The notes beneath the pieces were generated by a model. It saw only the letters and a program-made list of their open reading frames with translations, did no database searches and was not told the origin of the DNA. The position numbers were made by a program, and so were the translations under genes. A stretch of 64,000 bases of DNA from Corallium rubrum. Lineage: Eukaryota > Cnidaria > Anthozoa > Scleralcyonacea > Coralliidae. The stretch spans positions 230,589 through 294,588 of the forward strand of contig CAXIUP010000256.1 in assembly GCA_964035015.1 (NCBI GenBank). Direction: 5' to 3'. Of this stretch, positions 349-63,865 are shown one piece after another (the first letter of the stretch is position 1; every line of letters starts with the position of its first letter).

Positions 349-560
349 ATTACAGTCACTTGCAGCTCACTTTTCACCCAAATATTCGGAAGTTCGTTCC
401 GAAGTTCGCACGTTCGTTTTGAACTACGCATTTGATTGATTGCTTGGTTCCTAGCAGCCAATCAAATGCGTGATTCAAAACGAACTTTGAACTTCCCAAT
501 GAACTTCAGAACAAACTTCCGAAGATTTGGGTGAAAAGTGAGTGGCAAATGACTGTAATC
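349..560. repeat. foldback element (hairpin, about 210 bp)
   Basis: The left arm runs inward from ATTACAGTCA through CTCACTTTTCACCC and TCGGAAGTTCG. The right arm carries the reverse complements (GGGTGAAAAGTGAG, TGACTGTAAT). The arms meet near a short loop around 440-460. No coding capacity. A target duplication is not clear. Confidence 0.6.
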
Positions 561-1470: not shown

Positions 1471-1802
1471 CCATAGATAATGGAGGGGAACTGGACAGGA
1501 AACTTACAAAACCGGAAGTGATGTTTGCACAACTTGCTATGGTAATTATACACTTACAGTGTAAGGGGCTAATATGCACCTAATAACGGGTGGTCCCACA
1601 TGGCTAACATCAGACACTGCTAAACTTAAGTGATATTACAATAATTGCACTACTGTTTAATTTCAGCAATGGTTGATCCCGGCCATGTGGGACCACCCGT
1701 CAGGCTTATAAGTGTATAATCACCATAGCAAGTTGCAAACATCGTTTCCGGTTTTGTAACGCCGTTTAAGTTTCCTATCCAGTTCCCCTTCATTATCTAT
1801 GG
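1471..1802. repeat. foldback MITE, 332 bp
   Basis: The ends are CCATAGATAATGG and its reverse complement CCATTATCTATGG (one base different), with arms of more than 130 bp that include ACTTGCTATGG, ATTATACACTTA and GGGTGGTCCCACATGG. It is flanked on both sides by AAATA (1466-1470 and 1803-1807), a likely 5-bp target duplication. Non-coding. It lies between the last two visible HECT exons of element A. Confidence 0.65.
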
Positions 1803-4598: not shown

Positions 4599-5040
4599 CG
4601 GTGTTTTTGAAACACTTTTATTGAGGTTGACCAGCTGTCTACAGTATTAGTATACAGTACCTGTAATGAAAATTTTATTTACCTTGCACTCTCTTCAAGT
4701 GCTAGCTGCATTGAAAAATCATTGCCATCATCACTAAGATCTTCATCATCTAGTAGTGATATATAGGACCTGAAATATTTTAAAATTAGTAAAAACATTA
4801 TTAGAAAATTGAAATATTACATTTTGCATTTTCTGGATTTGTCAACGTTTGCAACCAACCTGTATTGAGGAGAAGATTCTACTTCTCCAGTTGATTCTAG
4901 ATCTATTTGTTCAATGTGCTGTTGTGTTTCTGGTCTTTCACAATGATATAGTACATCTGTACCTTCTTCTACACCCTACAATATTTTAAGAAAAATTGAA
5001 AGAAAAAGTTATTCTACAGTAGAACAATGAGTTACAACCA

Positions 5041-5891
5041 AAGGAGCACGCCAGACTCACCTGAGTGTGTTTCTTCTTCTTTGTTCAGTGTTCCTTCATT
5101 TATATTCAGCCATTTTGAATAATGCGGTATATATCATGAGTGTATCGCAGGCACGGGTTACGGGGCCGAAGGAAACCTGAGCACGTTCCAAAAATTAAAT
5201 AACGGTCGGAAGGAAGATAAATAGAAGGGGAGTGAAATGCCAGAGATTTTGTAAGAAAACGTAATGTCTAATATTTTGACTCTATATTAAAGGGCCTTGG
5301 CTCCAATCGTTCGAAACGTGAGACATCTACATTCTATGTTTCGGCAGTACATGTACATATTAAACAAACTAATACTATCAGTAGATCGAAGGTGGATTTC
5401 AGTTGATATGTTAGTAAATTAAATACAGTGTAATATTACAATTTTACGACGTGTTTGGATGATGTAATTTAAATACAGCATTTGAACAGTATTTTCTTTC
5501 TCTGACTCTGTCTTTGCAAGTGGTTCGCTGGTGGCTAGTTGGGTCATGGGTTGTAACTTCTGGCAACTTATAAATACTTACCTCGCGTGAACAACCTAAT
5601 TGATTGTTGACAGATCAAGGGCTACGAGCGTAGCTAGATTTCAAAACCCAAATAACACATCACCGCTGGTCAATACTCCATCATGTGATGGTTGTTTCAC
5701 TCTCTCCTTTTTTCTTCCCTCCTTTCTCCGCCCTCGTAAATGTTCGGGCCTCGGGTTTCCTTTGGCCCCGTAACCCGCACCTGCGATACGCTGATGATAT
5801 AATTATACCACATTATTCAAAATGGCTGAATATAAATGACGGAACTCCGAACAAAGAAGAAGAAACACAGGTCAGTTTGGCGTGCTCAATT
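5041..5891. mobile_element. non-autonomous DNA transposon, 851 bp, long TIRs, 10-bp TSD
   Basis: Inverted arms of about 200 bp (5041-5245 and 5690-5891) share GAGCACGCC, GTTTCTTCTTCTTTG, TTATATTCAGCC and GGGGCCGAAGG. The sequence GTTACAACCA lies directly outside both ends (5031-5040 and 5892-5901), which is a 10-bp direct repeat of target-duplication type. An 8-10-bp duplication with long TIRs suggests a Mutator-like or hAT-like non-autonomous element. No transposase is present. It sits in the long intron between HECT exons 3 and 4 of element A. Confidence 0.65.
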
Positions 5892-5901
5892 GTTACAACC
5901 A

Positions 5902-7215
5902 CCATACAAGAACTGCCATACAATAGGCATCCTTATTATACAACTGCATTAAAAACTGTCCAAATAATGCTAAAAATGTGTGCAAATATACAGCAATATT
6001 TGCATAGTTAGTTATTTGCACTGGTTATTTGGATGGTTAGCCAATCAAATTTATCACACGGGAGACTACTTCATGTGTGCTTATTATTTTGTCCTGGTGC
6101 AAGTCACGCTCCTACTTCTCTGGCCTTTTTAGAGTTTTCTTTTTCCATAAAAAATCAGAGCAGTTGTATAATAAATCTCTTATAAGATGTTTTCATGTGT
6201 AGTATCACTGTATATTTTTACTTGTTGTTTGTATTTTGACTCACCCTGCAAGCTCATCAAAATACGGCACAACTCGTAAAAATATACAGCGTTATTTTTT
6301 TTCGGTCCGTATCCTACCAAATCCTGCTTTCTGATTGGTTAACGAGCGGTCTGTATGAGCCCGTACGAACCGCTCGAGATAATTTTTTAATGTGTTTTAT
6401 AGGCCGTAAAATTGACCGATTTTCATACATAACTATTTCGCTTGCCACAGAAAAAATATATTCAACAGAGAGCTACAGGGATGCAAATGAGTTTTATTAT
6501 CGAAATGGCTTTGACAACTTTGAAAACAGCGAATTTTAAAAGAACGTGAGAATGCTGTGAAATGTCAGTGAGCAACATTTATAAAGTTTTAAAGTATTAT
6601 TGCTCAACGACGTACGAAAACAGTTTAAAACAGTAGGCAAAACATACACAAACTTGTGAACACAGTATTTTTAATCACTACATGAAAATATAAGACAGAA
6701 AAGCTGAAACCTTTTGATACTAAACTGTCATTCTTCTGTTGTCCAACTATACTCAACAAAACCACTACAAGTCTTTACCCTTTAGTCAAATATTTTCCAC
6801 ATGCCAACCTCATCGTGTCATGTCTTTGAAAAAAGTTTCAAATGGCTTTAATACTACAAGCATTTTCATCTTCAAACTCAAACGACCCACTTTCAATTTC
6901 CATGCAGTCAGCAGAGTATTAAAAGTGATTTTCCAACAGCCAAAAACGAGCAAGCGACGAAGAAGAACGACAAAGAATCTTTATCAACTAAACTTTAAAA
7001 AGACTAGATCTTCAAGTTTTGACTGGTTTTTTTATCACAAAAGACGTTCCAAGCTTCCCTGTCAGACAGCATGTCTGCAGTTGTTTACTGTCGAACGATA
7101 AACTGTGGACTTTTGAATATCACGTGAATATCATCTCGATTACACAATTCAATTATGTTAATTTACCTAATTATGTAAATTATATAAATCGTACGATTAA
7201 TAAAAAAAAAAAGAA
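5902..7215. other. intronic or intergenic DNA, no gene seen
   Basis: AT-rich sequence inside the long HECT intron of element A. Short open frames occur on the plus strand near 6740-7100 but show no recognisable domain. GGTCCGTA at about 6303-6312 resembles the MITE at 7216-7353. Confidence 0.4.
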
Positions 7216-7353
7216 GTTATTTACCGTTTTGGTCGGTCCGTATAGAGAAATATTTCCCTCAGTCTCAGAAACGACCCTCGGCCTGCGGCCTCGGGCAGTT
7301 TTTGAGACCTCGGGAAATATTTCTCTATACAGACCTCCCAGCTGGTAAATAAC
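7216..7353. repeat. small foldback MITE
   Basis: GTTATTTACC near the left end and GGTAAATAAC at the right end, with inner matching arms TATAGAGAAATATTTCCC and GGGAAATATTTCTCTATA around a GC-rich centre (CGGCCTGCGGCCTCGGG). Non-coding. Confidence 0.6.
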
Positions 7354-8397
7354 ATATATGTACTACACACCAACACATCTAATAAGAGATATATATTTTT
7401 GTTGTGGTTTCCTTATGAATTATAATGTAAAATAATGCTGTGATGCACTGTACTGTACCTCAGCTGCATCTGGATGCAACTCTACTTTAATTAGTGCTGA
7501 GTTAGCCAATATGTATAAGCCTCCTTGGCCAGCAAGTGATGCAACCTCATGGCCATTCCAGGTAAAAGATGAAGATACTGACGGTATTTTCAACCGTTTG
7601 GTCCCAGGAACAACTGAAAGATAATCATAATCCAAAAGGTCCTGCTCCCCCAAGGCAAAAACCTTCTGAAAAATTGATGTGATCTCAGCTGCAACCTACA
7701 ATTACAGAAAATAGTTTCATATAACTCATTCACTGCCAGGCATCTCCCCTTAATGACAAGTAAAATAATACATGTACAGTATACCCAGCATGAAATAAAG
7801 TTATATGTAGCTGTGGTAGTAAAAGATTAATACCAGGTCATTAATGCATAATAGACATACAATATTCAGTTCACTTGCATATCGAAAAATTGAATCTTCT
7901 AAGTTATTAAAGTTCAGATTTCAGGGTGATGATGATGGTGTACTCTTCTTTTTTAAGTGGAAAGTAGTTTATTACAGTGTATACAATACAATAAAAAAAC
8001 CCCATTTGTTTGACATAAAAAATTATACAAAAATTTATATTACAAAGTTGTCCATTTGTAATGTTCATTGCAGATAAAATATTAAAATCCGTTTATAATG
8101 TTTGGCATGGTTAGTCCATGCTTGGGATGTGGCTCTCAGCACTAACCAGATCAATGGGCTCCCCATCCACCACTGCAAATGCTCCACATTATCCAACACC
8201 ACCCCCCATGGCCATTGTATGATTTGCTACAGTCTGCAAGTCCATACTAGTTGACCAAAAATTACTACTCAAAATAAAAGAAGACAACTTTGGGTGAATG
8301 CTTCTTTGAGCCATCAGATTTTCATTAGGGGGTCTATCCTGCACCCACTTGCCATTTCAAAATGTTTGGAGGGCTCCAACCCCCAGCTTCCATCACT

Positions 8398-8455
8398 CAA
8401 TAAAATAAAATAAAATAAAATAAAATAAAATAAAATAAAATAAAACAAAATAAAT
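8398..8455. repeat. (AATAA)n microsatellite
   Basis: About ten pentamers of AAATA/AATAA type in a row, degenerating at the right end. Located in the intron between HECT exons 2 and 3 of element A. Confidence 0.9.
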
Positions 8456-9249
8456 TAAACTATTATACATCTACTGTATCTGTCTAACTAATAAGCAAAG
8501 CAACTAATGAATAAAAATAAGGATAACCTTACCTGCCGAGGAGACCACGTAGAAACTATTCTAATTTTCCCAACTAATCCTTTCTCAGCCAATCTTCCTC
8601 GTGCTTGTCCTCTTGGGATCGAGTATCGTTGTGACGCAGAACCTTCGCCTTTTGGTATACAGACAACGTCTTTACTCCATGTCTTTGTCTTGCCGACGCT
8701 ACCTGACGTTCGTCGCTTTGATGTCGAGCCTGTGCTGGATGGAAAAGACTGAAAACGTGACGGCAATACTGCTTGTGTTGTTCTCATAGTGGAGGTACTG
8801 GGTGTCGTCGACCGCGTTGCCGTGGCATTCGTCATCGTTGCATATCTCGTCGTGCTAGTGTCAGACTATACAAAGGGAAAACACAATGTGTTATAAAGCA
8901 TTCAACGACGGCGAAGAAAATAAGCTATAGAAGCGATAGATAGTGTTCAACGAACTTCATTAAACTGACCTGAATAGTGCGAGTCTGTGCGGTTGTTGTC
9001 CTCGTTTGATTTCGCCGTTCAGTCTCACTGGGACGGCTTTGCGAAGGGTGTAAAAAACTCGTTACTGCATTAGCAACAACTCTGCCAAGTTCTTCTGCGT
9101 TGAGATCGGGTCGATCGGCCATATTCCGTCGAAGAAATAGTGAATGAAGCTCTCTCTTTATTTAATTATGGCGCCATATTCCAACTCCAAGAGCGTCTGA
9201 GCACGTGGAAAGATTTTCTTACTGCGCATATAAGTTGCGCACACCCAAA

Positions 9250-9690
9250 ATGCTTATTTATAAATAAGCAATTGCTTATTTATAAATAAGCAATTGCTTA
9301 TTTACATTTAAGCATTATTTAAACATAAGCATTATTTAAACATAAAATGATTATTTGTAAATAAGCAATATTTCACTAATGTAAACAATCATTTTTGAAG
9401 AAATGCTTGTTTATAAATAAGCATTTGCATTCAAATGATTGTTTATAAACAATCAATGAGCAATAAATGTTTATTTATAAATAAGCATTTATTCAAAAAT
9501 GATTGTTTATAAACAATCAATGAGCGATAAATGTTTATTTATAAATAAGCATTTCTTCAAAAATGATTGTTTATAAACAATCAATGAGCGATGAAGGATT
9601 ATTTATAAACAAGCATTTATTCAAAAATGATTGTTTATAAACAATCACACTGCACTGAATTGATTATTTATAAATAATCGGTTATTTTGT
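9250..9690. promoter_or_regulatory. subterminal array of palindromes, element A
   Basis: More than ten near-perfect palindromes of about 18-20 bp with a TTTATAAA-type centre occur one after another, for example TGCTTATTTATAAATAAGCA and TGATTGTTTATAAACAATCA. Part of the array is a roughly 65-bp tandem repeat holding one palindrome of each kind, separated by ATGAGCGATAA-like spacers. It lies between the HECT start (9122) and the transposon terminus (9764). By position these are candidate transposase-binding or promoter sites. Element C has an equivalent array with different outer bases. Confidence 0.75.
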
Positions 9691-9954
9691 GTGATTGTTT
9701 ACAAACCATGGAAAATTGATTAACAAAATTTGCTAAATAATTTTTTTACACCTGGCGCCTCATACGATATCGCATTGCGAAATTCGCTGTTGAATCACGA
9801 ACTTCGATAATGGATTACAAAGTTGATTGTTCGTGATGCATAATCCATTGTTGCACTAGTTAATGTTCATTGTTGATTAACGAATATGGTTGTTGCAAGC
9901 GAAACTTGAATGTTGGCAAGCAAAATGTATTTTTGGCGGGGATGGAACACCATA

Positions 9955-45475: not shown

Positions 45476-45982
45476 ACCAGTGTGAATTTCGTATATACGG
45501 AAGTATTTATTATGCATTCACAAACGCAGTAGACGCCTTTTTTCAATGAGCGATGACTCTCAAAAGCGAGCTGTATTGGTCATGCATACTGGTGTACGTA
45601 GTAGCTCGGAGATAGGTGATGCTGGCTTTGCCATGCATGTGTCATTCTTTGCCATTTTGGGGATACGTGATCAGGAATGGCTTTGCCATTCATATGTTCC
45701 ACCATCCATATGAAGCGTTATTCATGTCAAAATTCAATTTCAAATTATATTATGAAAATTTTCAAATTATATTCTATATACCTAAACACAATTTAAGTAT
45801 GTCAATAACATAATTTGGAAACGTCAAATTATATTATTGAAATATTCAAAGTATTTTTCACAAAAAAAAGAAAAACATAATACTTTGAGCGCATACCTAA
45901 ATTATGTTATGTTTTTACTCGCATGCGACGGCATTCACTTGTCTCAGCGGTTTTATCAAGAAAGACAGAGAAAGACTCGAAG

Positions 45983-48211
45983 ATGGCGGAAGAACAACAT
46001 AATATTTCGATCTTGTTTTCTGAATTAAGGCGGTACATCGAAGAAGTAGTGATGGCTTTGCAGCAAAGTGGTTCATATAGTAATGATTTTATACAATTTC
46101 GACTTGACTGGCTTTGCAATACTGTGATTCGATACGTGAGTCAAATACCTTTTGGGGATTCATTGCTGCATTTTATCCAGACAGCTAGGGACCTCGTTCA
46201 GCAGGAGAATAACGACCGTCCAGTATTTTATGAGACGCAACTTTCTTTTACTGGCCAACGCGGGAGGCCTCGATTGCACATTTCACGCGATCAAATGGGG
46301 TTCTTCCTGGACTTACATTTTACTGCAAGTGAAATTGCTTCTTTAATGGGAGTAAGCGAAAGCACGGTCAGAAGGAGTATTCACGAGTACGATTGCCACG
46401 TGGAAAGAAGCTATTCAGATTTTACCGAAGAACAACTAGACCAAGTGGTACTTCAATTTATTAGAGAATTTCCTAACTGCGGGTATAGAAGAATGACCGG
46501 ACTTCTACTCAGTAGAGGACATAGGGTGCAACAGCATCGTATAAGGGAGAGTATGAGAAGAGTCGATCCAAGGGGCGTGCTTCTCAGAGCAATTGAAATT
46601 AGAACAATTCGTAGGAGAAAGTACTAAGTTCCTGGCCAACTTGCTTTATGGCACATTGATGGGAATCACAAACTAATAAGGTACATCACTTTGAATTCTC
46701 ATTTTCTCTTTAGTCTTATAACATACACTGTATCATACTACGCAATAAGAATTAAAAATAATAGCATTACTTGAAGTGTCAAGACAGGGTTCACGGTTCA
46801 CCCCTGGCAATTGATGGAAATGTGTAGGTACTGTATGTATAAAACAAGTTTTCACTTCCTGTGTTTTTTTACACCTTAGGCAAACCTATAACATCAATAA
46901 GTATATCCACTCTCACTAGGATCTCCCTATCCCTCACATAGAATTTATTGAAACACCAAAGTAATTATGAAGCAATATGTGGTAGCAATACCTTGTTACC
47001 GATATTATAATAATTATTGTGTAAGGCAAAAGTTTAAGAACTCATAAATATTGCGATCCTTTTCAGTTCTGCCAAGTCTTTGTTTGATAGAACAGACAAA
47101 ACTCTGATTGAAAAATACTTACTCAATATGAATGCAGTTGTGCTCACTTCTAACAGTGACTTTATTTCGGTGTTCAATTTTTAAAGACCAAACTGTCATT
47201 GTCCATTTAATTTTTTTCTTTACTACATAGATGGCGTTTTGTAACTCACGGTGGCATCGATGGTTACTCTCGCATGATTGTCTTCTTGCAATGTAGCACC
47301 AATAACTGTGCCACAACGGTTCTACACAGTTTTTTGTCTGCTGTTAATCAATTTGGATTGCCATCAAGAGTTCGGTCTGATAAGGGTGGTGAGAATAGGG
47401 ATGTTGCCATGTATATGTTGAGTCATCCACTTCGAGGTGTTGGCAGAGGAAGCCATATAGCTGGTAGAAGCGTGCACAACCAGAGAATCGAGCGCTTATG
47501 GCGAGACATGTTCTCTGGTTGCATTCATGTATTCTATTATTTATTTCTGGATATGGAACAATGTGGCATTCTAGATCCAGATGAAGTGCATTTATTTGCC
47601 CTACACTTTGTCTATCTACCACGCATCAACAGAAATTTAAGAATATTCACTGGTGGACATAGCCGAGCACCAATCAGCAGTGAGAGAGGGAAATCTCCTG
47701 TGCAACTTTGGGTTCAAGGATGTATGACCAATAGGAACAGAGGCATTGAAGAGTTGTGGAGTCAGGTTTGTTTTATCCATGACCAGATTAAATATTCATA
47801 TTTTTGTACAGCTACTGTACATATATGTACTCAGGTTTCACTAATGTTCTATTACTGTAGTATAGTATCTACAGTGTTGTGTAGCAACACAATAATACTG
47901 TAGATTTATGAATATTTTATTTACATTTGTTTCACTCACACTAGAGTTGCTTCTTTTTTCAGGAAGAAGAACATTACTATGGAGTAGATTGGGATGGTCC
48001 CCCTCCAAGTGAACACTTCGATGGTAGGTTACCAAGCCCAGATGAAGGAGTTGAAGTGCCAACAACAGACAGCCCATTAAGCAACGAAAATAACATTTTA
48101 ATTACAAATTTAATCAACCCATTGCGAGAAAGTGACGTTCATGGTGTTGATATTTACGTAGAAGTCCTCTCTTTTGTTCAACAGTATGTGCAGATTAATA
48201 CAAACCAATAG
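45983..48211 (+). pseudogene. IS3/retroviral-type DDE integrase of element B, one nonsense codon
   Basis: Exons 45983-46680, 47231-47765 and 47963-48211 with GT-AG borders and matching phases. I prefer the ATG at 45983 (MAEEQHNISILFSELRR). The helix-turn-helix is at LHFTASEIASLMGVSESTV. The integrase core has WHIDGNHKL (first Asp), RSDKGGEN (second Asp) and [11 protein letters not shown] (Glu, 36 residues after the second Asp). The tail includes EHYYGVDWDGP. One TAA (46625-46627) interrupts the frame just before VPGQLALWHIDG; all else is open. The family would cut and join transposon ends. Possibly a recent loss or a base error. Confidence 0.85.
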
Positions 48212-49072: not shown

Positions 49073-52000
49073 TTACATTCGTCCATAACCTATTGCTTGT
49101 GCACTTAGTGTGGCATCAAATGCTCTCTTAAATGCTTCAAATGTAGCATGATCTGTAGGGAGTTGGATTGTTGCTGTGCAAGCATCAACATCTGGCAGCT
49201 CCCTGCCATCCCTTGTAAATTTCACATTAAGTAGTCTTGTTGGGGGTAATGGATCTCCATAAATGAACTGGGTTAATTTCTCCAAAGTTGGCACATGCTC
49301 ATTATCTGGACAACAGAATTAAAAACAGTTAAAACACAGTTACTGTATGGTACACTTACAGTTCTACAAAAAAAGATGTACTACAAAAGTGTGTATTATA
49401 AATACTATACCAGTTTGTGCTTTTGGTGGAAGCTGATGAATGAATTTTCGGAACCAATCTATTGCATCTCTTTGCTTATTGTTGAGGGTATCTGGTGTCA
49501 TCTCAATGTTGATTTTGCTTAAAAGGTTATCAGATTCCACAGTCACATCTTTTGATTGTGAAAATGCCTTTGATACAAATGATGGGTGGCACTTCAGGAA
49601 GGATGATAGGCCAACGGAATCCAAACCTCTGCGGATCTCATCCATCTCTGCCATTCTTATTCTGAGCACGTAGTAGATAAGAATATCTTGAACAGCCTTT
49701 TCTCTATTTGCTAAGGTTAACAATTTGTTAACAAAGCCACTTGTAGTAAGAAGAGAACCAATGCTGTCACAACCATGTAATTCCACCAATTCTTCCTGGG
49801 TTGCATTCATTATCTAAGAAGTAGACAAAATCACAAAAAATATCAGATACGTGTAGAAGTATGTTAATAGATTTTTGGATTTCTGTAGTTGTAGTACAAT
49901 ATTATTGTACTAAAAATGATCTGAGCAACTGAAATGGCATGTTACAGTTACAGAAACATCTCAGGCAGCATTTAGACCATAAAATGAGTATGTAAGTGTT
50001 TAGTTTATATATCAGCACATGCAGAAAAATAGACGAGTATTTTTCTCAGTCCAATACAGTGTTAAAATTTTATTGTAATCTCACCATTGTAATACAAATT
50101 AGGTTAGATATATAAGATTTTGACAGCACACTATACATATATTTATAACACAAATGTAATTCAGGTGAGACATGCAGATACACATAATTGTAAACTAAAT
50201 TCCAACCATGGGTTTACTTACTATAATAACCACATGACTGTAGATGTTTGTCTTATCTCACCTTTTCAATATCCTCCCGGATGCTTAAGTCGGGTACATC
50301 CTTTAATGTGATAATTGGGATGGCTTCATCAACAGATGCTGAATAAATATACCTTACAACTGGTTGTGCCATGCCTACAAAAGGATACCCGCCATGTAGA
50401 AAAGAATGCGAAATCAGCCTTCCAACATAGAAGAAGAGGTTTGACTCTAAAGCATCTATCGAATGTAAAGGTAGAAAATGATCCCTTTCTCCTTCAAACA
50501 GGGAAATACGCCTGTCACCAGTCGCCAATGCTTCCATTGTAAGGTGGAAGAACTCTCTAGTAGGCCCAGATGCATCCACGCCATCCTCACCCAAAAACTC
50601 TACATCTGGCTTGAGCTGTATATCCAAACCTCGCTTATGTAGTTTAATCAGGTCAGCAAGAATAGTGGTAGATTTTCGACTGATAGAAATTGACTGCTCT
50701 TGTCCGTGCTTTACAATTCTGGACAAGTATGCGGTTAATCTATCAGCATCAGTTTCTACAGAGTCTGTAAGCATGTAAATTAAGTTAAATAATGACAATT
50801 GTTACATCTCCAAGTATACAGTAGAGGGTAAGGAGGGATTATTTGCATTAGCTTAGCTGGACACTGGGTGATTAGAAGAGTGAGCATGAGAGCGGGGAGG
50901 AGATAAGGATCCAACAGCATTTTATCATACATACAGTACTATAGAGCCAATGGGTAATAGTTATAACATACCATCACTTTCCCAAAACTTCTCATCGTAA
51001 TCAGAATCCAATGTTATTAATTCTATTAAAAATAAAATATGGTATTGTACAAATAGTTCAAATAATGTACAGTAAGGGATATTAGGACAAAAGATGAAAT
51101 GTTGCATTCAATAGAGACGTTGAATGAAATATTTCATCTCTAAACTGAAATATTATTTCCTGACATAATTTGTAACAATGCATGAAAGCAGGGTTAATAT
51201 ATTGACACCCTGTATGACAATTTAACCAAACGGGTTGTACTGAAATATTTTCAGTCAAGAAGAAATTGCATTAAATGCCATATATATGCCATATAGAATA
51301 GTGACTGTAATTTTGTTTGGCAGGGTACATTGATGCTTATAGTAATTGGCTTACTAGTTACTCTAGTACTACAAATTATAGTAGTTACATTAAATTACCA
51401 ATATCAGCCAGCTTTGATGCTGCCATTTCCATGTTGCCATTGGACATACTCAAAATCCTGCCAATAGTTTGTTGACTAACTTTTGGGAAAATACAAGAAA
51501 GCTCTTTGACTTTGACATCATTTGCCTAAAATTAATAATTGTTTTGATGTGAAATTTCAAAATGTTAAGTATATCATTAAATTAAAAGTATATCCCAAAT
51601 TAAATGTCCTGATTGGCAACTCCTGGTTTAGATGCATGTTAAGCCAATTACGAACAAGTAGAAAAGCGAGAAAGGTGAAACGACAGTACACAATCTGCAG
51701 ACTGTTTTCCCATTCACATCAAAAATCATATGCGTAAACAGCTCTTAAGGGAGGGAGGGCACAAGCATTTTTTACATATCACTGGTGGATTTATAGGGGA
51801 GGCAGGGGTGTGCCTCCCTGTTGGCCTTGGTCAACTGGGGTGCAAAAAATTAAGTTTAGCCTACTTTTAAATGTTTGAGGTCTTATCAGTCTTAGACAAA
51901 CTTAAGTTTTGGAATTCAAGGCAGTGGTGCCAAATACCCAATATTAATAATTACTACCGTAATGTTGAGGTCTTAGTATGGGGCGCCAAATGTAAAAAAA

Positions 52001-55000
52001 TTATTTACGCAAAATACTGGTCTATTTTTTCATTATTTAGCTATATAATCCTTTATATATAAACAATAGTAAACATTTTCATAAATAATCCATGGATTGT
52101 TTGTAAATAATACAAACTATACAAGGATTATTTATAAACAATCCAAGGATGGTTTATAAATAATCCATCGATTATTTATAAATAAGCCGTAATCGTTTAG
52201 ATTATGTACATATAAGAAGTGGATGGTTTGTAAACCATCAGTGGATGGTTTGTAAACCATCCACGGATTATTTATATATAATCCAACGATTATATGTAAA
52301 TAATCCTTTAGATCACGCGCGCCAAGCGCCGTTTGTAAAACAAAGATGGCGGCGTGCGTTGCACGCGCAGGGGGGTGGGGGAGGTAATGCCAATTTCGCG
52401 CGCAACGCGCTGTCTTGAACATGCGCAAATCGCATACACAATAACACATTCACAAACGTGCATAATTGTTTCGTTCGACTACATGAATAATTCATCAGAA
52501 AATCAGGTTGTCAACGTTTTAAGCCAGATATCAAGATTAATAGCATCTGTTTCGAGTCCTGCTGTGCCTACGGCTACAAATAATCGAGGTCTAACGGCAT
52601 CGACGTCGTCTTCGTGTCAAGAGGTAACTCACTTTATAATAATACAAAAATATCATTATTTTGCACTGTTGTTGCGACGTTTAGATCTGTTTTTGTGTTT
52701 GTTATTTCATTCATTGTTTATCGTGTTTTTATAATACTTTGATCATTGTTTACCACAGCATGAAAGCATCTCAAGTCCACTTCCTTCGGGATATGTTGAC
52801 CAGCGATAACAACACATTTACAAATTACAATGGATGACTCAGATGAGCCAACAACAATCACAATGGATGACTCGGACGAGCCAACAACAATGGACGAAGA
52901 GATTGAGACACGAAGACGGTAATAGTATTGAAGGAGCTCGACCTTTATAGTGTCTTTTTAAGATGACGAGTCTCTTTACTCTATGCAATCTCACGGAGCT
53001 CGATCTCTAGTCTAGATGTAAATACGGTGACTAGTCTCTATGCAATGTCTTACATTTTATTTACGAGTACACATTTATGACCATTATTATTATTATTAGC
53101 ATGACAAAATTACTGGATGCTGTTTGGTTGAGAGGAGTACAATTAATTGCATAATGGTGATTTTACCAAAACAAAATGGCGGGAAATATCGGTTAAACCA
53201 ACACAGATGAAATTGCCCAAGAGAAACCTAGAGCAAAAGCACTAAAAAATACCAATAAAGCTTCAAATTTGAGTTGAAAATGAGAGTCTGGCAGGACTCT
53301 GTCTTGGCAAGACAACATGTTAAATTTGAGAATAATTATCCCTCACAAGGGCTGGATAAAGTGCTTTGGAAGTCATGGCAGATGCTAATAATAACGAGCC
53401 ATGCAATGTGGCTCGTACAATTAGGGATTAACAGTACTTGTGATGTTTGAAAATGTTGGCAAATTGGAGCTCGCCACAGCGGCTCGTCCAATTTTGGCAA
53501 AATTTTCAAACATTACTTGTACTATTAATCCCTAACTGTACTCGTCATTGCACGATTACCTATACTTATTATTATTATTACTATTATTATTATTATTATT
53601 ACTATTATTATTATTATTATTACTATTATTATTATTACTATTACTATTATTATTACTATTATTATTATTATTACTATTATTATTAATATTACTACAGTGT
53701 ATTATTGTTAATATTATTATTATTGTTAATATTATTATTATTATTATTACTATTATTATTAATATTACTACAGTGTATTATTGTTAATATTATTATTATT
53801 ATTGTTAATATTATTATTATTATCATTATCATTACTACAGTGTACTATTATTATGATTATTTTTGATGTCTGTAAATCAAAGGCAATGTGTTAGTTTTTT
53901 AATGTCATCTTTAAATATTTATAGACCTGGAAGACCAGGAGTCACTGTTTCCTCAGCAGACATTAAAAATATGTTCGAATTGGGGTTTACAGTTGCTCAA
54001 ATGGCCAAACGCCATAACATAAGCATGCCAACTGTATAGAGGATGCTGACATTGATCACCCAGCAAGATTTACTAACATCGATGACAACCAGCTGGATGC
54101 AATCATAGCACAAATTAAAATTACTCACCCAAATGCTGGTGAAACCAATGTGATGCGGCATCTCAGAGCAAGAAAAATAAAAGTCCAGAGGAAAAGAGTT
54201 AGGCAGTCCATACACAGGGTTGACCCAGAAGGCCCTTCTGAACGCAGTTCGAGAAATTTTCGTCACCGTGTTTATGAAAGTCCATGTCCCAACTATGTCT
54301 GGCATTTGGATGGGAACCATAAACTGGTTAAGTGGGGCTTTGTCACCCATCTGGCAATAGATGGGTACACAAGGCTTATAACGTTTGGTGCAACATCGGA
54401 TAATAATCGAGCTGAAACTGTTTTGCAGAAACTCACAAGAGCTGTATCGCTGTATGGTAGGCCATTGAGAGTGCGAACAGATCACGGGGGTGAAAACACA
54501 CAAGTGTGGCGGTACATGGTGGAGCACCGGGGTATTAGCAGTGTTATTGTTGGCTCATCCGTCAGGAACCAGAGAGTAGAGCGCTTGAATGGTGATGTCA
54601 ATGTACAAGTGAATGTATTCTACGCAGCTGTGTTTAGAGAACTGGAATTTGACAATAAACTTGATATTGCAAATCCAACAGACAAGTTTTGTCTTCGCTA
54701 TGTGTACCTGCCTAGGATCAATCAAGCTCTATCCGAGTTTGTTGCTGCCTATGATTCCCACAGTATTTCGACTGAGGGTAATGCTACTCCACTCCAGCTG
54801 CTGCATAGGTACCAGCATTTGACAGAGCTTCATCACTCAATTACGCATTCAACTCCTTATCCAACTGTAGCTGTCCAAGATCTGCTAAGGAGGGAAGATA
54901 CTCTCCCATTTGTCAACGTTGAGCCCCCAATCTCACCACTGCCTGATGAGAAATTGGCAGAGCTCAGGACATCTGTGGATCCACTAGCACCTTCCCACCA

Positions 55001-58000
55001 AAAGGGAAAAGACATTTATGATAGAACTGTTCAGTTTGTTGGACAATATCTCAATACATTGTAAGGCAATTTGTTGGCCAAGCAATCTTGTGTATGGTAG
55101 ATAAACATATTTTGGTTAAGAATAGGTTCTCGTTTTATTTTGTTAACTGTTTCACTAAATGCCACACATCTACAGTCTGTATATCAATATGCATGTGGGA
55201 AATATACTGTATACATAATCCATTGTCTGAATTGTGTACATAATTGCTGTCATTAATAATTAATGTTGGTATGGTGTTACTGTAGTGGTGGAACTGCATT
55301 TTCATAATTATTATCTCTGAACAGTATGATTGAGTAGCCCTTATCAATATGCACCAATACCATGGACCATTTGTTTTGTATTGACAAGATTTTCCAATTG
55401 GGTTAAAGTGAAATTCCTGGGATGGGGGTGGGGGGTGCATTGGCAGAACTTTGATCTTGCAAAATTTATATTTGTCAAGAAAAAGAAAAAATTTGAAGGG
55501 CACAAAAAATGAGGAAGGATGTAGCACCAGCACTTTTCAGTGATGTTGCTTCTGCTGGGTATAAATAAATTATGGTGGATATTAAATGGATGACACTTCA
55601 CTGTTAAATGCTTTAAAATCAGAGATACAAGCAAATAATAAGCAGTAGTGGAATAGTTGCAATTAGCTTCAGTGGTACAAAACTAAATTAGTTGAACACA
55701 GTATAAATATGATGTAGAGACTCTAAAAAATGTGAACAAACATGCCATCCACATAATGTATGCAGAATGACGTGACTTTAATTACTCCAGTGAGTTATCG
55801 CTCTCTCTCTTTTTGCAGAACACATACTGTATATAACCATAACTTGAAAACACTGTGTACTTATGTATGCTAAGATGCAGTACACTGGTAGTCAAAATAT
55901 GAAGTTCTGTTCTAAATTAGTCAATGTCTTTAGTTTTCTTCAAAGTTTAACTTTTGCTCAATAGCAGTGGAAGCCAAATGCTTCGCATTCCAGGGCCTTG
56001 TCCATGGCAGTAGCAAAGGCTCCCATGGTTTCATGGACAGTTGGCAGGTAGAAATTGAATCCACAGGTGCTGGCAGAAGGGTAGATGCAGCTTTTATCTT
56101 CTAAATATCCAACATGTATCTTACTAGGGAGGCCACTCAGTGATTGTTGGCCAGTTGAAAACTGAATAAGTGCTTCACATCTTGTTAGTTTTATCTCTGA
56201 AAGAATCAACAATACTGTATTAGGCAATAGTCAGGTCTGAAATGCAGACTGGAAAATGCAGACTGCAGATCAAATGAGGGTTAGGGTTGTAGTAAGGGTT
56301 ATGGGTTGACTTCATGGTTAGGGTTATGTTAGCAAATATGGTTAGAGTTGTGGTTGGGGATACATAGGTTTAGGGTTAGATGAACTTAAATGGTATAGGC
56401 AATGAAAATTTTTATTGTCTCATTGGAAAGATCTTTCAAAATGCCATATAAAAGCCGTTTACAGTTCATACAAATCTTGTTTAGTTTTTGAGATATTTTG
56501 ATCAGAAGCAGCATGTTGTCCGCCATCTTGGATATTCATGGCTATGCGGAAACGTCACAAGCGTGATCACGCGATATTTTTATTACACAATACATCACGT
56601 AAAGTCAAGACTTCTGTGGACCTTAGACTTCTGTAAGTACTTAAACTTTTAAATTCGACAATAGCTGTTCCTATGTTTTCTCCTTACAATTGTGGCATCT
56701 AGACGTTTTAACAGCTTTATCACGCTTGTGACGTCACGTAATGAGGTAAAATTATGATCCAAGATGGCGGACAGCATGCTACTTCTGATCAAAATATCTC
56801 AAAAACTAAACAAGATTTATATAAACTGTAAACGGCTTTTATGTTGCATTTTGAAAGATCTTTCCAATGAAACAATAAAAAATTTCATTGCCTATACCCT
56901 TTAATATTAGACTTTTAAGTAAATACATCGGTCTGCATTTTCCAGTCTGTATTTTTCAATCTGCATTTCATACCTGCCAATTAGGCAATAAAATGTTGTC
57001 AGTACATTTAGGTTTGCTGGGGGGCACCCCCACCCACCTAGTAATGCTAGTGCAAGGGATGATATCTTTAATGATCAAGCAAAATTTAAAGCGATCACCT
57101 CCTTTGGTATATTTGGTGATTTGGTTCTGAACCGTATCAGTTCTGCAGGTCCAGATGTCATGAGACAAAAGAAAGTGATCGCAAAAAGTTAAAATAGCAA
57201 GTGGAAATTAAAACTAAAATAGCAAGTGGAAATCAGCCTTAATTGGGATTCACAGGATGGCAACCCACCCTGAATAAATGGAAGTATTTGTATATGTATT
57301 ACCATGTCCACATGAAATGACTAGTTTGTCACCCTGCATGATATACCCTTTAAACATATTCTTTGCTTCTCCTCAGCATTGTTCCCTGGTTCAGCAATGT
57401 CAAGCCATTCCAACATCAATTCACCTGTTAAATTTGCACTGGATTGCACAAATTTGTTAAGAAAATTTTGAGGAGCCTTTTGTATCATCTGTAAGACATT
57501 CAACATCTTTAGACCTTGAATTATTTGGTTGATAGCTGTTTCCCGCTTCCAGATAATTTCATGAAGCATCAAAGTTGCGACCAATTGCTCCTTCTCAGAG
57601 AATGCTACAACATTTGTCCATCCTTGATAAATTTAATCCATGAAAATATGTAAAAAAATTTATTTCACAGAATTGTTTACTAAAAATTAAAAATGAATTA
57701 CTTCTTTGAATTGTACCTGCACTGAATACATAGTCCAAGACATCAGGTCTGTTTGCTAGTAGTTGGAACTGTTCTTCACTGCTCCTAGAAATCTACAGTT
57801 GAGAAACAATGCACTACATCAATAACAATAATTTCTAATAATAGTCTAATCTACATGTATCTTGAAACTAGTCTAGTATTCTTTGCCAGAGAAATTGGTA
57901 ACCAGCAGTGCTAGCAAGGTTACCTACTGTACGGTAACCCCTATAAGGACTGTGCTGAACAATGATTGGATTAACAATGATGTCAACGAATAAGTATTTT

Positions 58001-61000
58001 CAGGTCATTGTCTAGTGGTTAAATTTGGTACCTGTTTGAGGAAGATGAAGATGTTAGTACAGTACATTACCTCCTCAATCATCTCTCGGGTATCTTTGTT
58101 TGGAATCATTTCCTGTTCACAGTAGATCAAGCAGGCTTCCGCATTTTGGGACACAACATTCTCAAATACTGGACGTGCCAAATGAGGAAACCCTAGTAAG
58201 ATCAAGTAGATAAACTTAGTTATTGGTAGACATCTGTAGCTAATCAGGATTCACTCAGTAGCTTGACTAGCTACAAAGAACTTTAAGAAGGTCTGGGTTA
58301 ATTAGAGAGGAAAGCTCAGTTCTAGTTTGGTTTCTAGTCTATTATTGTCACCCAAGACATGGGGATACAGTTGATATTTGCTATTTGTCATTGCCACAGT
58401 CACCTTTTCATGCATATTTTTTGTGAGGGTCCAGAGGTTACACCCCAAAATAATTTTGTACCACTCCCTCCTCCCAGGGGTGTTTGGGAACCATTGGAAA
58501 TGATTTCCACCACCCTGCAAATTATATGAAAATTAACAATTATAAACAATTACCTATTGCTCCATTAATTATCGAGTGTGCAATGATATTGCCAATTATT
58601 CTGAAATGACCAAGTCGCAATGATGGGCCTTTCATAACGGGCAACATCTTGTCTCCAGCACCTTCAAAAAATCCGGTTGTTGTTTGTGCTATCTTGTTAC
58701 TCAACAACTGGAAAAATTCTCTCTTAGGCCCCCCGCTGTCAACTCCAATCTCTTCTGTATCACCCGAAAAACAGACCTGTAGTGGCCTAGCTCCATCCAC
58801 TCCAGATTTATAAAATCTAAATGCTTCAGCCCAAAGATTCTCTGTGTCTATAGACACGATATTTGGCTCTCCACGTAATTGCCGTTTAAAATACTCTGTA
58901 ACATCAAAAGTGCCTAAAAGAAAAATATGTTTTAATAAATATATTGACAGTATGCAGCCTAGTTGTTAAGTTTGTTGCATTTGAGTCTTCTGTGAGACTT
59001 GTGACCCAGTTATAATCTGCAGACAGATGTTGAGATATATTACATTGTGTGAGTTATGGGACAAAGCAGCAGAAATAACTGCTTGCTGTTTTGTTTACAA
59101 TATTTCAATTGTTGAACATTTAGTTGATGCATAAGGTAGCTTAATTGATGTCTAACAAAAGTACTGTATAGCATGTGATATCGGAAAGCTACCAAGATAA
59201 ATGTTCAACACGTTGAATTTCTATAATGGTAAATTAGACTTTGGTGGAGTGGACATTAAGTGTTAAGGGCAATTCTGAGCAACATTCAATCTATATCCAG
59301 CAAGCAGAGAAAAAGCCTACAATTGGCCCAGCTGGGAATCCAACCCACAACCCTTGGGTTAGTATATCATAGTGTCTGAGGGCGATGTTTTACCAACTGA
59401 GCTACATGATGGGGACGTGTGGAAATGGTCAAGGTTAAATTAATATTTCGAAACTAGGTTTAATTTCTTCAATATCGATGTGATATGGATACATGTTGTA
59501 TTATAATTGACATGCGATATTGAAAAAAAAAACTAGACCTAGACTGTTTAGAAATACCTGCCTCGACCACACCTTGACCTTTGACACCCCCAGCTTGACC
59601 TGTAGCTCAGTTGGTAGAGCATCACTCCAGGCTAGTAACTTCAGTTGTCGCTTTGACTCACAGATGGGATAAGTAGAGTTTATCTCTGCTTGCTGGGTAT
59701 GGATAAACTCATAAAATCTCGGAGTAGGTGAGTTGCCTTTAACACCCATTGTTGAATTTGATGGAAAAGACTAGAAAGCTAGACCATCATATACCTCAGA
59801 TGGGTAATTTACATACTTTGACTAACATCCTCCTCATTAGCAGATAAAAGTTCTTCAATTGCAAAATCAATTGTTAGATTATTTTCAATTGCATCCTGTA
59901 AAACTTGACGAGTTGTTCCTGGAAACATTGCTTGCAATGTGCTAAGATCATCAGTGTCATTTGTTGTCAAATCCTGAAATGAAGTAGAAATAGCTAAATT
60001 ACGGCATTAGTATTCATAGTTTATCCTAATGAAACTTGAAACATACAATACAACTACATACTGTCACATAGAATCACAGGTTGTAACAAGCCGCATGCAG
60101 AATGTGTTCGCAAGCCTTGTACACAAGTTGTTATGTTGTTGCTCTTTTTGCAATCTTCCTATTCGTTAGCAACCAAACACATCCCGCTGTGGCTTGTGAG
60201 ATTCTTGTACATATACTGTAGGACTGTGTAATATACCTGCTGGTTTGTGCTGCATGTAGGCTGCTCATGTGGCTGAGTAGTAGGAGCAATGATTGGAGTG
60301 GAAACCTGAAGTAAAGTAGAATTGTGCTGGAGCAAACATCTTTATGCATGAGTCAAATCTAACCGCGATCATCCCCCCAGGCAACTTCCGGGCATCTGAG
60401 TTGTGACGGGTCCCGTATGGACTGGTATTTGGCATAATCCAGCCCGGGCGGGCATTTGACCACATGAAAAAAAAACCCTGCAAAACCTGCAAAAAATCTA
60501 TCCCCAGTGTTGTTCTAGAGCGATTATCATCTTGTAAATCAGCTTTCTGGTAAACACACACGTCTCAAAATCATAAAAGATTGAATGATCGGCAACCAAT
60601 GTGTTTTATTTGGGTGCATGAACAAATAAAATGTTATTTGGAATAGGGTTTTCAACTACAAGACAAATTTTCAAAAGTCAAATTCCCTGGGGGTCGCCAT
60701 GATTGCGGTTGGATTTGAGTCATGCATTATTGCACAGTATTGAGTAACAATACAAACCTGTTGATCTGCATTATCTATTGGCATGTTATCTTCCCTACCA
60801 TGAGGATCCTCGCATTCCTCATCACTGATTTCCTATAGAAAAGACACAAAATATTTATATTACATCATAATGTGTTACAAACTTGAAAACATTGGCTTTT
60901 TTAAGTTTTATAACATGAAGTATAATCATAAATATTTCTCTTACCATTGTTGGGATCAATACAGGGAGTGGAGTATTGGCCATAATGTATAAGCTTCCTT

Positions 61001-63865
61001 GCCCTGCCAAGGATGCTACTTCTTGCCCATTCCAAGAAAAACTTGAACTCACAGTTGGTGGTTTCAGCCTTCTTAGCCCTGGCACCACAGACAGATAGTT
61101 GTAGTCCAAGAGCTCGTCACCGCTCAATGAAAACACATTGGCAAATACTGATGTTACTTCTCGTTTCACCTTAATAAAGCAGCATACATACAATAAATAT
61201 TACGCCTGGGATATACTGGAGCATTGGATAAAGCTGGTTTGCAGCCATATACGACTGCATTTGGACAGCAACTGCTTTTTCGTCAACTTAGATGTAAATT
61301 GCAGGTTGCTGATAGGTCGAAAGTTCTTGAACACTAGGTCCAGGTTCTGTTTTTTCAAGGACGGTAACAATAAGGCGTCCTTCCATTCATCTGGAAAAAC
61401 TCCAGACGAAAGAGACACATTAATAATTTTTTTTAGGGCGGGCAAAAGCTCTTCTAAACATTCTTTTACGATTTTTGTTGGTACCGGATCAAGCGAGCAC
61501 GATTTAGTAGGTGCACCTATAATTAAGTTCCTCACTGAAACCTCATCAAGAAGATCAAACTCTGTCAGTGATGTGGAGCACTGCGAAGTTGCCAGGGTTG
61601 AATTAACACGTAAATGAGACATATTCTGATCTTTATCAGTATCCAGTTCACTACAGATGTCCGTGATTTTCTTGACAAAAAACGACCCCATTTCATTAGC
61701 GAGCCTAGACTTGTCGCAGCAAGGAGGAAAGGATGTAGCATGTGTTTGATTGAAAAGACTTCTTGTAATTGAGAACAATTTTTTTTGATCATTCGAGTTT
61801 TCATTGATTAAGTTAGTATAGAAGTTCGTGCGTGCTTTATTCATAAGGTAAGTGGCCTTGTTCCTTGCAGCCTTAAATAGTCTCCAATCGCCTTCAGACT
61901 TAGAGGTTCTCCATCTACGCTCAGCACGCCTTCGTTGCCGTTTGGCATCTCTAACTTCCATGGAGAACCAATGGAACATATAGACAGGAGGGGGCTTATT
62001 ATTCGGGGGTATTATCCACGAAGTTTAGATTTTACGGTATGGGTATTGGGTAAGTGTAAGATACAGTAAATTATAGAGAAATGCCAAGTGATAACAGCAA
62101 ACTAGACAATTTTATAATCGCTACTAACAATGTCAGCATCAAAACACTATAAAACAACTAAAAATTTCACTACCTGCGTGATATCCCATGTTGAAACCAA
62201 TCGAATTTTCCCGATCAGGCCCCTTTCCGCCATGAGCCCCCGCTGCTTTCCTCGAGGAATGGAAATATTCTTATCACGGGTGTACGGAAAACATACTACA
62301 TCCTTATTCCAGGTTCGAACACGTCCAACAGTCCCAGAGGTTTTTCGCTTTGAGTTGTTGGCTGTGAACGGTGTTGTCCCAGTAGTTCTACTTCTACCAC
62401 TGGTACTACCACGGCCACTGCAAGCACTAGCACGAGTGTTCTGTCGCTGGTCAACATATCCCGAAGGAAGTGGACTTGAGATGCTTTCATGCTGTGGTAA
62501 ACAATGATCAAAGTATTATAAAAACACGATAAACAATGAATGAAATAACAAACACAAAAACAGATCTAAACGTCGCAACAACAGTGCAAAATAATGATAT
62601 TTTTGTATTATTATAAAGTGAGTTACCTCTTGACACGAAGACGACGTCGATGCCGTTTGACCTCGATTATTTGTAGCCGTAGGCACAGCAGGACTCGAAA
62701 CAGATGCTATTAATCTTGATATCTGGCTTAAAACGTTGACAACCTGATTTTCTGATGAATTATTCATGTAGTCGAACGAAACAATTATGCACGTTTGTGA
62801 ATGTGTTATTGTGTATGCGATTTGCGCATGTTCAAGACAGCGCGTTGCGCGCGAAATTGGCATTACCTCCCCCACCCCCCTGCGCGTGCAACGCACGCCG
62901 CCATTTTTTTTTTACAAACGGCGCTTGGCGCGCGTGATCTAAAGGATTATTTACATATAATCGTTGGATTATATATAAATAATCCGTGGATGGTTTACAA
63001 ACCATCCACTGATGGTTTACAAACCATCCACTTCTTATATGTACATAATCTAAACGATTACGGCTTATTTATAAATAATCGATGGATTATTTATAAACCA
63101 TCCTTGGATTGTTTATAAATAATCCTTGTATAGTTTGTATTATTTACAAACAATCCATGGATTATTTATGAAAATGTTTACTATTGTTTATATATAAAGG
63201 ATTATATAGCTAAATAATGAAAAAATAGACCAGTATTTTGCGTAAATAATTTTTTTACATTTGGCGCCCCATATCTTAGGGATTTATATTTTACAGTTTA
63301 TATAATAATTAAATTATATTCATTCAACATATCTGTAAATTGTAACCAAGAAACTACCAGGTGCGCTTTTACAACAGCACGCTGCTACTGCTAGCCAGTG
63401 CTGGGTTTGATGCCCGGTTGATTGCCAAACATCCCCTCTAAAAAAACTTGCTGGATCCATCCCTGCATAATAGTAATTTTGTACTGGCCAGTGTGCTTAA
63501 TATTTTTGTAACTTCCAGGTACGAATAAATAATAATCATCACTAAACTTGTATATTAGTAAATTGGGGTCTAACCTGCACACTTGTACTGACTCCAGCAA
63601 TGGGATTTCCACAGCATATGTTTGTACTGGCTCCTACAGGGGGTACTCCTGGTGTCACACTTGTACTGGCTCCTACAGGTGGTACTCCTGGTGTCACACT
63701 TGTACTGACTCCTACAGGAGGATTTCCATGGCATACATTTGTACTGGCTACTACAGGATTTTTCCCTTGGCATTCACCTTGATGCTCATGCCATAAAAGT
63801 AATGGAACACTCTCTCCGCAATCCATGCATTCTATTTTTTGAATATTTTCTGAAGTAAGATCCAT
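49073..63865 (-). CDS. HECT-type E3 ubiquitin ligase of element B (CUE and zinc-finger)
   Basis: Exons 63575-63865 (5' limit open), then, beyond the nested element C, 51399-51525, 50972-51022, 50262-50755, 49411-49813 and 49073-49305. All junctions are GT-AG and the phases add up with no stops. The first exon has a Cys/His finger (CMDCGESVPLLLWHEHQGEC) and a 13-residue repeat region. The 51399-51525 exon is a CUE-type ubiquitin-binding domain (CIFPKVSQQTIGRIL, then NMEMAASKLAD). The HECT N-lobe has DASGPTREFFHL. The C-lobe ends with the catalytic Cys in DACTATIQLP, 34 residues before the C-terminus. Predicted to transfer ubiquitin to lysines on substrates. Upstream exons are probably beyond 64000. 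The intron of about 12 kb is due to the nested element. Confidence 0.8.
51971..51976. repeat. left target-site duplication of element C
   Basis: TCTTAG directly before the first base of the left TIR; identical to 63274-63279. Confidence 0.85.
51977..52805. repeat. left TIR of element C, 829 bp
   Basis: Inverse copy of 62445-63273. It contains a terminal motif (52 bp with a T-run), a palindrome array (about 52080-52310), a GC-rich promoter-like stretch with ATGGCGGCGTGCG and a G-run (52315-52385), and a copy of HECT exon 1 plus the beginning of HECT exon 2. The reading frame of that exon copy meets TAA (52807-52809) directly after the TIR boundary, so here the exon probably serves only as 5' untranslated sequence. 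Confidence 0.9.
52083..52311. promoter_or_regulatory. palindrome array in the left TIR of element C
   Basis: Eight or so near-perfect palindromes of 18-20 bp, such as GGATGGTTTGTAAACCATCC, GGATTATTTATATATAATCC and CGATTATTTATAAATAAGCC. Their outer bases differ but each half matches its partner. They lie between the terminus and the promoter-like GC-rich stretch. The same array occurs inverted at 62939-63167. Candidate transposase or host-factor binding sites. Confidence 0.75.
52830..55064 (+). pseudogene. IS3/retroviral-type DDE integrase of element C, interrupted once
   Basis: Exon 1 at 52830-52918 starts 25 bp past the TIR with a duplicated MDDSDEPTT peptide. The donor is GTAATA and exon 2 begins at 53925 (RPGRPGVTVSS). 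The helix-turn-helix FTVAQMAKRHNISMPTV is cut by TAG (54037-54039). The next frame resumes at once with EDADIDHPARF and stays open to 55064, so a few codons plus a frame were lost here. Catalytic residues are intact: Asp in HLDGNHKL (54309-54311), Asp in RTDHGGEN (54480-54482) and Glu in NQRVERLNGD (54579-54581). The gap between the second Asp and Glu is 32 residues, four fewer than in element B. The N-terminal part is shorter than in element B. The TIR would supply its promoter. A sequence error at the break is possible. Confidence 0.8.
53569..53870. repeat. (TTA)n microsatellite in integrase intron
   Basis: About 300 bp of TTA/CTA units with interspersed ACTACAGTG. It lies in the intron between 52918 and 53925 of the element C integrase. 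Poly-Tyr and poly-Leu frames through it are artefacts. Confidence 0.95.
55065..55957. other. spacer between convergent genes of element C
   Basis: No coding capacity recognised. AATAAA-type signals (for example TATAAATAAATTA near 55560) could serve the integrase transcript. Confidence 0.45.
55958..62767 (-). CDS. HECT-type E3 ubiquitin ligase of element C (CUE domain)
   Basis: Eleven exons: 62627-62767, 62174-62491, 60945-61169, 60758-60832, 60237-60305, 59817-59973, 58554-58913, 58071-58192, 57717-57792, 57347-57622 and 55958-56196. All are GT-AG and phases agree, giving 685 residues without a stop. Exons 2-3 encode a conserved N-terminal region also found in element A (TWNKDVVCFP, GLIGKIRLVSTW, SSFSWNG). 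Exon 6 is a CUE ubiquitin-binding domain (LQAMFPGTTRQVLQDAIE, about residues 280-320). The HECT N-lobe begins near 350 (DSGGPKREFFQLL). The catalytic Cys is about residue 651 in STCGFNFYLP, 34 residues from the end. I use ATG 62767; an in-frame ATG at 62896 would add 43 residues. A ligase that would ubiquitinate unknown substrates; its place in a transposon suggests a role in transposition or in countering host control (inference). Confidence 0.87.
56270..56390. repeat. degenerate GGGTTAGGGTT-like repeat
   Basis: Irregular GGTTAGGGTT/GGGTTATGGGTT words over about 120 bp in the last HECT intron of element C. Too irregular for a telomere array. Confidence 0.6.
56400..56900. mobile_element. TTAA-flanked foldback MITE, about 500 bp
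   Basis: Arms of about 170 bp share GGTATAGGCAATGAAA, GAAAGATCTTTC, AAGCCGTTTACAGTT, ATATTTTGATCAGAAG and GCCATCTTGGAT. TTAA lies beside both ends (56396-56399 and 56901-56904). A second inverted pair of TGCAGACTGGAAAATGCAGA-type sequence lies outside it (about 56230-56270 and 56930-56975), so it may be inserted in an older inverted element. Located in the last HECT intron of element C. Confidence 0.55.
59225..59755. repeat. inverted pair of tRNA-derived SINEs
   Basis: The minus-strand copy (about 59225-59415) has, on its sense strand, CATGTAGCTCAGTTGG and GGTTGTGGGTTGGATTCC. The plus-strand copy (about 59590-59755) has CCTGTAGCTCAGTTGGTAG. Both tails share TCTCTGCTTGCTGG and GTTAAGGGCAA/TTGCCTTTAACA-type sequence. 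A/B-box-like heads with body and tail indicate SINEs, not tRNA genes. They lie in the HECT intron between exons 6 and 7 of element C. Confidence 0.6.
61200..61979 (-). pseudogene. LINE reverse-transcriptase fragment in HECT intron
   Basis: A 259-residue open frame matching the linker and N-terminal RT region of a CR1/RTE-like LINE: RRAERRWRTSKSEGDW, then SCSLDPVPTKIVKECL, INVSLSSGVFPDEWK and FRPISNL (RT motif 2). The catalytic ADD motif is not present, so it is a fragment. It lies in the second intron of the element C HECT gene, same strand. Not related closely to the LINE at 12.3-15.1 kb. Confidence 0.75.
62445..63273. repeat. right TIR of element C, 829 bp
   Basis: Contains the true first exon of the HECT gene (62627-62767), intron 1, the first 47 bases of exon 2, the promoter-like region and the palindrome array, and ends in GGCGCCCCATA. 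The differences from the left TIR are one coding change (Leu/Gln in exon 1) and two changes in an A/T run near 62904-62910. Confidence 0.9.
62939..63167. promoter_or_regulatory. palindrome array in the right TIR of element C
   Basis: Inverse copy of 52083-52311 with no difference seen. It sits directly upstream of the HECT transcription unit. Confidence 0.75.
63274..63279. repeat. right target-site duplication of element C
   Basis: TCTTAG directly after the last base of the right TIR. Confidence 0.85.
63600..63780 (-). repeat. 39-bp coding minisatellite in element B HECT exon
   Basis: About five units of 39 bp encode a 13-residue repeat of the type PVGASTSVTPGVP. It lies between the zinc finger and the CUE exon and is likely a flexible, low-complexity linker. 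Two of the units are almost identical. Confidence 0.85.

Follow-up and report, generated by a model that had tools for sequence, protein, structure and literature searches.

Within the window (the whole 64,000-nucleotide stretch of Corallium rubrum contig CAXIUP010000256.1 that was analysed) we identified a cut-and-paste DNA transposon, element C, that is best explained as an IS3EU-type element of a two-gene kind, in which a DDE integrase gene and a convergent gene for a HECT E3 ubiquitin ligase lie between terminal inverted repeats (TIRs). This explanation, taken as a whole and with the mechanism proposed below included, seems likely to us. The ligase gene very probably belongs to the element and is kept there by selection, as opposed to being a chance passenger. 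The common view of eukaryotic DNA transposons is that they supply an integrase or transposase and that the host provides the rest. A family in which selection maintains an element-encoded E3 ubiquitin ligase offers a testable case of a mobile element steering host protein turnover.

Structure of the elements

The window holds the whole or part of three two-gene elements (A, B, and C; Table 1). The inverted-repeat ends of element C are 99.64% identical over 830 bp, with 3 mismatches and no gaps, and a 6-bp target site duplication (TSD), TCTTAG, flanks the element on both sides; the long TIRs and the duplication reported in a first-pass annotation of this DNA were thus both recovered. TATGGGGCGCC is present at each end, so that the termini read TATGGGGCGCC..GGCGCCCCATA, and these TATGGGG..CCCCATA ends are of the IS3EU TA..TA (TAYGG..CCRTA) type. 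Element C fits IS3EU because its termini, its 6-bp TSD, and its rva_4/rve integrase core agree with published traits, which in the available part of the IS3EU / GingerRoot description (PMC10045372) are TA..TA termini, usually a 6-bp TSD, and an IS3-type DDE integrase. The first-pass annotation had also called the transposon complete, and this holds for the structure of element C but not for its integrase, the frame of which is broken in the HTH exon.

Table 1 Features of elements A, B, and C in the window (positions are those of the window).
Feature	Position	Strand	Remarks
Right part of element A	1..9764	-	6-bp TSD CGATAT
Element A HECT exons	882..9107	-	frame-broken
Left TIR of element B	45709..45967	+	about 260 bp
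Integrase gene of element B	45881..47903	+	ORFs 45881-46624 and 47211-47900
HECT gene of element B, 3' exons	49076..51525	-	CUE-like region, N-lobe, C-lobe; exons by eye
Left TSD of element C	51971..51976		TCTTAG
Left TIR of element C	51977..52806	+	830 bp; holds HECT exon 1 copy
Element C integrase, first coding exon	52830..52918	+	
Element C integrase, HTH exon	53925..54036	+	followed by stop; short out-of-frame deletion vs P0004
Element C integrase, DDE core ORF	54018..55064	+	rva_4 208 bits, rve 36.4 bits
HECT E3 ligase gene of element C	55958..62767	-	11 exons, 685 aa
HECT exon 11	55958..56196	-	C-lobe with catalytic-type Cys651
HECT exon 7	58554..58913	-	N-lobe start
HECT exon 6	59817..59973	-	CUE-like region
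HECT exon 1	62627..62767	-	within right TIR of element C
Right TIR of element C	62444..63273	-	
Right TSD of element C	63274..63279		TCTTAG

Element B extends from its left TIR in the window to contig position 295797, outside the window, with TIRs of ~260 bp (99.2% identity) and the TSD CATCCA. Given the position of this right end, C lies within B. Specifically, element C is inserted in an intron of the element B HECT gene (exons by eye, flank by tblastn), the 5' part of which is located on the far side of C, at about 63545 onwards and continuing out of the window (L021; tblastn of the flank). Element A (contig 224679-240352, flanking DNA included; TSD CGATAT) also carries convergent integrase and HECT genes, so that both A and B are TSD-bounded elements with this arrangement, A in a decayed state. 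Only about 146 of the 455 positions of the integrase P0012 were matched by the element A integrase, which lies to the left of the window, and the C-lobe of HECT was looked for in element A and not detected. The first exon of element A is present in both of its TIRs (98% identity), with the left copy outside the window.

The TIRs of element C could in principle bound an assembly or segmental duplication, a reading that the first-pass annotation had set against its own and that their 99.6% identity would suit. We consider it hardly credible, since the TIRs differ at 3 sites, element C has a TSD and is nested within an element with its own TSD, similar ends occur on many contigs, and relatives with both genes were found on other contigs.

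Ligase and integrase genes of element C

The convergent HECT gene reads as it had been described earlier: all ten introns are GT..AG, the splice phases agree, and the 11 exons form a single 685-aa frame with a stop. The predicted protein consists of an N-terminal domain, a CUE-like region, and the HECT domain. Pfam recognised HECT with a modest 27.2 bits, where 23.9 is the cut-off. The CUE-like region reached 13.9 bits, short of the 21.1 that Pfam requires; CUE was above this cut-off in the homologues P0001 (27.1 bits) and P0002 (24.5 bits). The conserved cysteine previously noticed near the C-terminus corresponds to Cys651, which lies in 'PSASTC', 34 residues before the end of the protein, and is conserved in 6/6 aligned sequences (element C and five relatives). 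In the relative L008, the C-lobe cysteine aligns with the cysteine of E6AP that we take to be catalytic. Solved HECT structures matched the element C protein weakly and in the N-lobe only (best E 0.0007, for Itch, followed by TOM1 and E6AP), and a structure prediction for P0001 from a 3-row alignment was unusable (mean pLDDT 33.7). The HECT protein is probably an active ligase.

Two other repeats lie in the introns of this gene. Intron 2 contains a LINE-like reverse transcriptase fragment on the minus strand (window 61200-62024; by eye), and the last intron contains 148-bp inverted arms with 93.9% identity (window 56386-56904), possibly a small nonautonomous transposon.

The integrase core is of the IS3-type DDE class (rva_4 and rve), with 16 relatives aligned. 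In element C the gene is interrupted, with a stop directly after the HTH exon and the core resuming in a different frame, so that the DDE integrase of the first-pass annotation stands as a DDE core ORF and not as an intact frame in this copy. The protein P0004 (412 aa), which is 98% identical to the core ORF, reads through unbroken, and ~10 bases are missing in element C by comparison with it (judged by eye from the protein). P0004 spans the first coding exon and the HTH exon joined exactly, and because the 1006-bp intron of the window (52919-53924) is absent from it, its source looks like a spliced transcript. Translation of the element C integrase from the HECT exon 1 copy in the left TIR was considered and rejected, as that frame (ATG at 52483) hits a stop at the TIR edge (52807-52809, just outside the TIR).

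In the octocoral Dendronephthya, the integrase P0012 and the HECT protein P0003 share 52 of 53 N-terminal residues. The simplest reading of this pair, and of element A, is that one first exon inside the repeats serves both genes. It is unusual for two genes to be coordinated by means of a first exon that each of the inverted repeats carries. The left exon of C meets a stop, and in the searched stretches of three related elements (C127, C1, and C188) the first exon was found on the HECT side and not on the integrase side. The shared-exon design therefore varies, and a shared leader peptide is not general.

Relatives of element C and selection on the ligase

We searched the genome (474 Mb, 312 contigs) for relatives of element C using its TIRs only. 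Nine TIR pairs besides C were picked by eye, and seven of them were examined (C49 and C32, of 2.2-2.3 kb, were left out). An integrase was found in 4/7 pairs (C127, C1, C238, C188), all four of which also carried convergent HECT sequence, whole or partial, while the three shorter pairs had neither integrase nor HECT. This bears on the concern, raised in the first-pass annotation, that homologous elements might usually lack the HECT gene, which was not the pattern among these seven pairs. Almost the entire HECT gene was present in C127 (585 codons matched, 3 stops) and C188 (549 codons, 1 stop), and C1 and C238 held pieces of it only. A 6-bp TSD was detected at 5/7 pairs; C1 had none, and the left tip of C127 was missing. 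Many element copies are thus decayed, as seen in the integrase frame of C, in element A, in the HECT pieces of C1 and C238, and in the stops of C127 and C188.

Searching with HECT gave 131 matches (129 of 515 candidates scored), hand-merged to about 115 places. These matches, of which many cover just a short piece of the C-lobe, suggest that such genes have spread widely through the genome in many copies. We read 19 places, namely the last 11, with about 5 kb to either side, and 8 spaced through the rest, with 4 kb on the 3' side only. A convergent integrase was present within 4-5 kb of the HECT match in 12/19 (7/11 two-sided and 5/8 one-sided stretches), which is a raw share uncorrected for the number of integrases in the genome. 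A short, edge-cut match at L042 was counted as positive and a weak match at L040 (E 2e-4) as none. In the two-sided stretches, all seven integrase positives were on the 3' side of HECT; for independent copies, chance alone would give this side and orientation with a probability of about (1/4)^7, but some of the copies are not independent (L026 and L027 look like near copies, and so do L029 and L030 on the HECT side). At L037, a second integrase piece lies in the opposite orientation, in addition to the convergent one. Intronless relatives were also encountered: L008 holds an intronless 657-aa HECT ORF (430-2403; 70.2 bits) with a convergent integrase piece adjoining, and L037 an intronless 508-aa integrase ORF (1198-2724) on the 3' side of another HECT match.

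Seven of the 19 sampled matches (L028, L030, L032, L034, L035, L038, and L040) showed no clear integrase over the length inspected, as might be expected if HECT genes formed a mobile unit of their own that often lands beside integrases. We regard such a unit as very improbable, considering that all 12 positives are convergent, that the two-sided positives fall on one side without exception, and that HECT exon 1 lies within the TIR in elements C and A.

Relatives were also found outside Corallium. A contig scan of genomes yielded two contigs that encode the integrase, both from sponge-symbiont assemblies, and we infer that both are host sponge DNA. In the first (L022; Iophon), the integrase (3379-4804, plus strand) and a HECT ORF (6111-4996, minus strand) are convergent and about 200 bp apart, and Pfam confirms both. 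The second (L023) encodes the integrase and ends too early to show whether a HECT gene follows. No relative was detected in the viral contigs searched. The two HECT protein searches were confined to the roughly 8000 candidates with the most words in common; they returned 3 and 2 proteins, which is no measure of family frequency.

HECT is under purifying selection between element lineages, given that dN (0.28-0.39 in 9/10 pairs) is far below dS (near 3 or saturated). The finite dN/dS ratios, which are rough because dS is high, were 0.09, 0.125, 0.125, and 0.124, with 0.42 for the close pair C127-C238 (77 codons). For the integrase (15 pairs), finite ratios were 0.06, 0.11, and 0.11, with 0.81 for the same close pair, for which the ratio suggests recent decay. 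Pairwise identities of HECT and integrase were also correlated over 8 elements (r=0.89, Mantel p=0.0008), in a mirror test in which some rows are partial and P0004 replaces the element C integrase.

The proposal of the first-pass annotation that the ligase functions as part of the transposon is supported by the presence of both genes in A and B, by purifying selection, and by co-divergence. We find it quite improbable that HECT is instead a captured host gene carried as a useless passenger. Part of HECT has been lost in C1, C238, and A, as a passenger might be, and the strongest HECT loci (L001-L007), short loci without integrase, may be host genes and a possible source; their lack of integrase is a weak control at 3.2-3.8 kb each. 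Against this, the same gene is found on the same side and in the same orientation in A, B, C, C127, C1, C238, C188, and contig L022, and neither the constraint between lineages nor the co-divergence with the integrase fits a useless gene.

Possible roles of the ligase and known systems

The mirrored TIRs may each supply the same promoter and leader, so that integrase and ligase would be made together. The ligase would then act in trans near the integrase, where it could ubiquitinate the integrase complex or host factors of repair, chromatin, or silencing that it encounters, and this ubiquitination would ease transposition. Action on host factors falls somewhat short of probable in our judgement, and we hold it slightly likelier than action on the integrase complex. 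Under a different and more tentative proposal, the ligase would regulate the integrase, ubiquitinating it or its bound complex and so limiting integrase dosage or clearing the complex after strand transfer. The N-terminal peptide shared by the octocoral proteins and the first exon shared in element A could unite both proteins in this way; the stop on the integrase side of C, and the failure to find the exon on that side in the stretches of C127, C1, and C188 searched, count against it.

It is possible, though we would put forward the combination only tentatively, that this IS3EU branch is an obligate two-gene transposon that either dates back to the ancestor shared by the octocoral elements and the sponge-contig ones or has passed from one such host to another. 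Some members of the branch would have TIRs that give both genes their promoter and first coding exon, and the shared N-terminal peptide would bring the ligase to the integrase complex, where it would ubiquitinate the complex or host factors. If the pair is indeed obligate, transposon genes would make up much of the 'G2/M phase-specific E3 ligase-like' genes that animals carry in multiple copies. Two animal proteins named 'G2/M phase-specific E3 ubiquitin-protein ligase(-like)', P0001 and P0003, are similar in length to the element C HECT protein (39% and 28% identity, respectively) and, unlike it, are annotated as ordinary genes. Judging by the N-terminus that it has in common with the Dendronephthya integrase, P0003 is probably an element gene. 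Transposon HECT genes could account for part of the 'G2/M phase-specific' HECT genes in animal annotations. A fish study, in its available part, reports an unclassified repeat candidate that matched G2E3 (PMC5638112).

The presence of a second gene has parallels in other transposons. In the accessible part of a study of fungal TET+ IS3EU elements (PMC12730594), the ends are TAYGG..CCRTA with a 6-bp TSD, an alpha-kinase gene lies opposite the transposase, and a TET/JBP gene lies between them. Element C agrees in its ends, its TSD, and the opposed orientation of its second gene, but that gene encodes a HECT ligase, and the same portion of the fungal text contains neither HECT nor ubiquitin. Likewise, the main text on IS3EU / GingerRoot (PMC10045372), as far as available, never mentions HECT or ubiquitin. 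According to the portion available of PMC9741609, Helitrons encode VTD and OTU deubiquitinases, for which domestication has been proposed in some hosts. They are thus also DNA transposons with a ubiquitin-system enzyme, but of another class; their enzymes remove ubiquitin and the VTD domain lies in the Helitron frame, whereas element C has a separate convergent gene whose product is predicted to attach ubiquitin. The transposon HECT gene has parallels both in fungal IS3EU, with their kinase and TET genes, and in Helitrons, with their deubiquitinases. Our literature search found no study pairing IS3EU with HECT and none joining a HECT ubiquitin ligase to the integrase of a TIR transposon. While IS3EU itself is known, HECT as its second gene is new as far as the literature was searched, and a Repbase entry may already list the gene.

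Apart from the three elements, the window contains a 443-bp near-perfect inverted repeat (29624-30066; 99%) with two tRNA genes in opposite orientation. Two long minus-strand ORFs of 835 and 400 aa (31901-35562) resemble pieces of Helitron Rep and helicase (by eye). A DDE_3 transposase with a PAX-like DNA-binding region is encoded on the plus strand (15891-16706) and is presumably Tc1/mariner-like.
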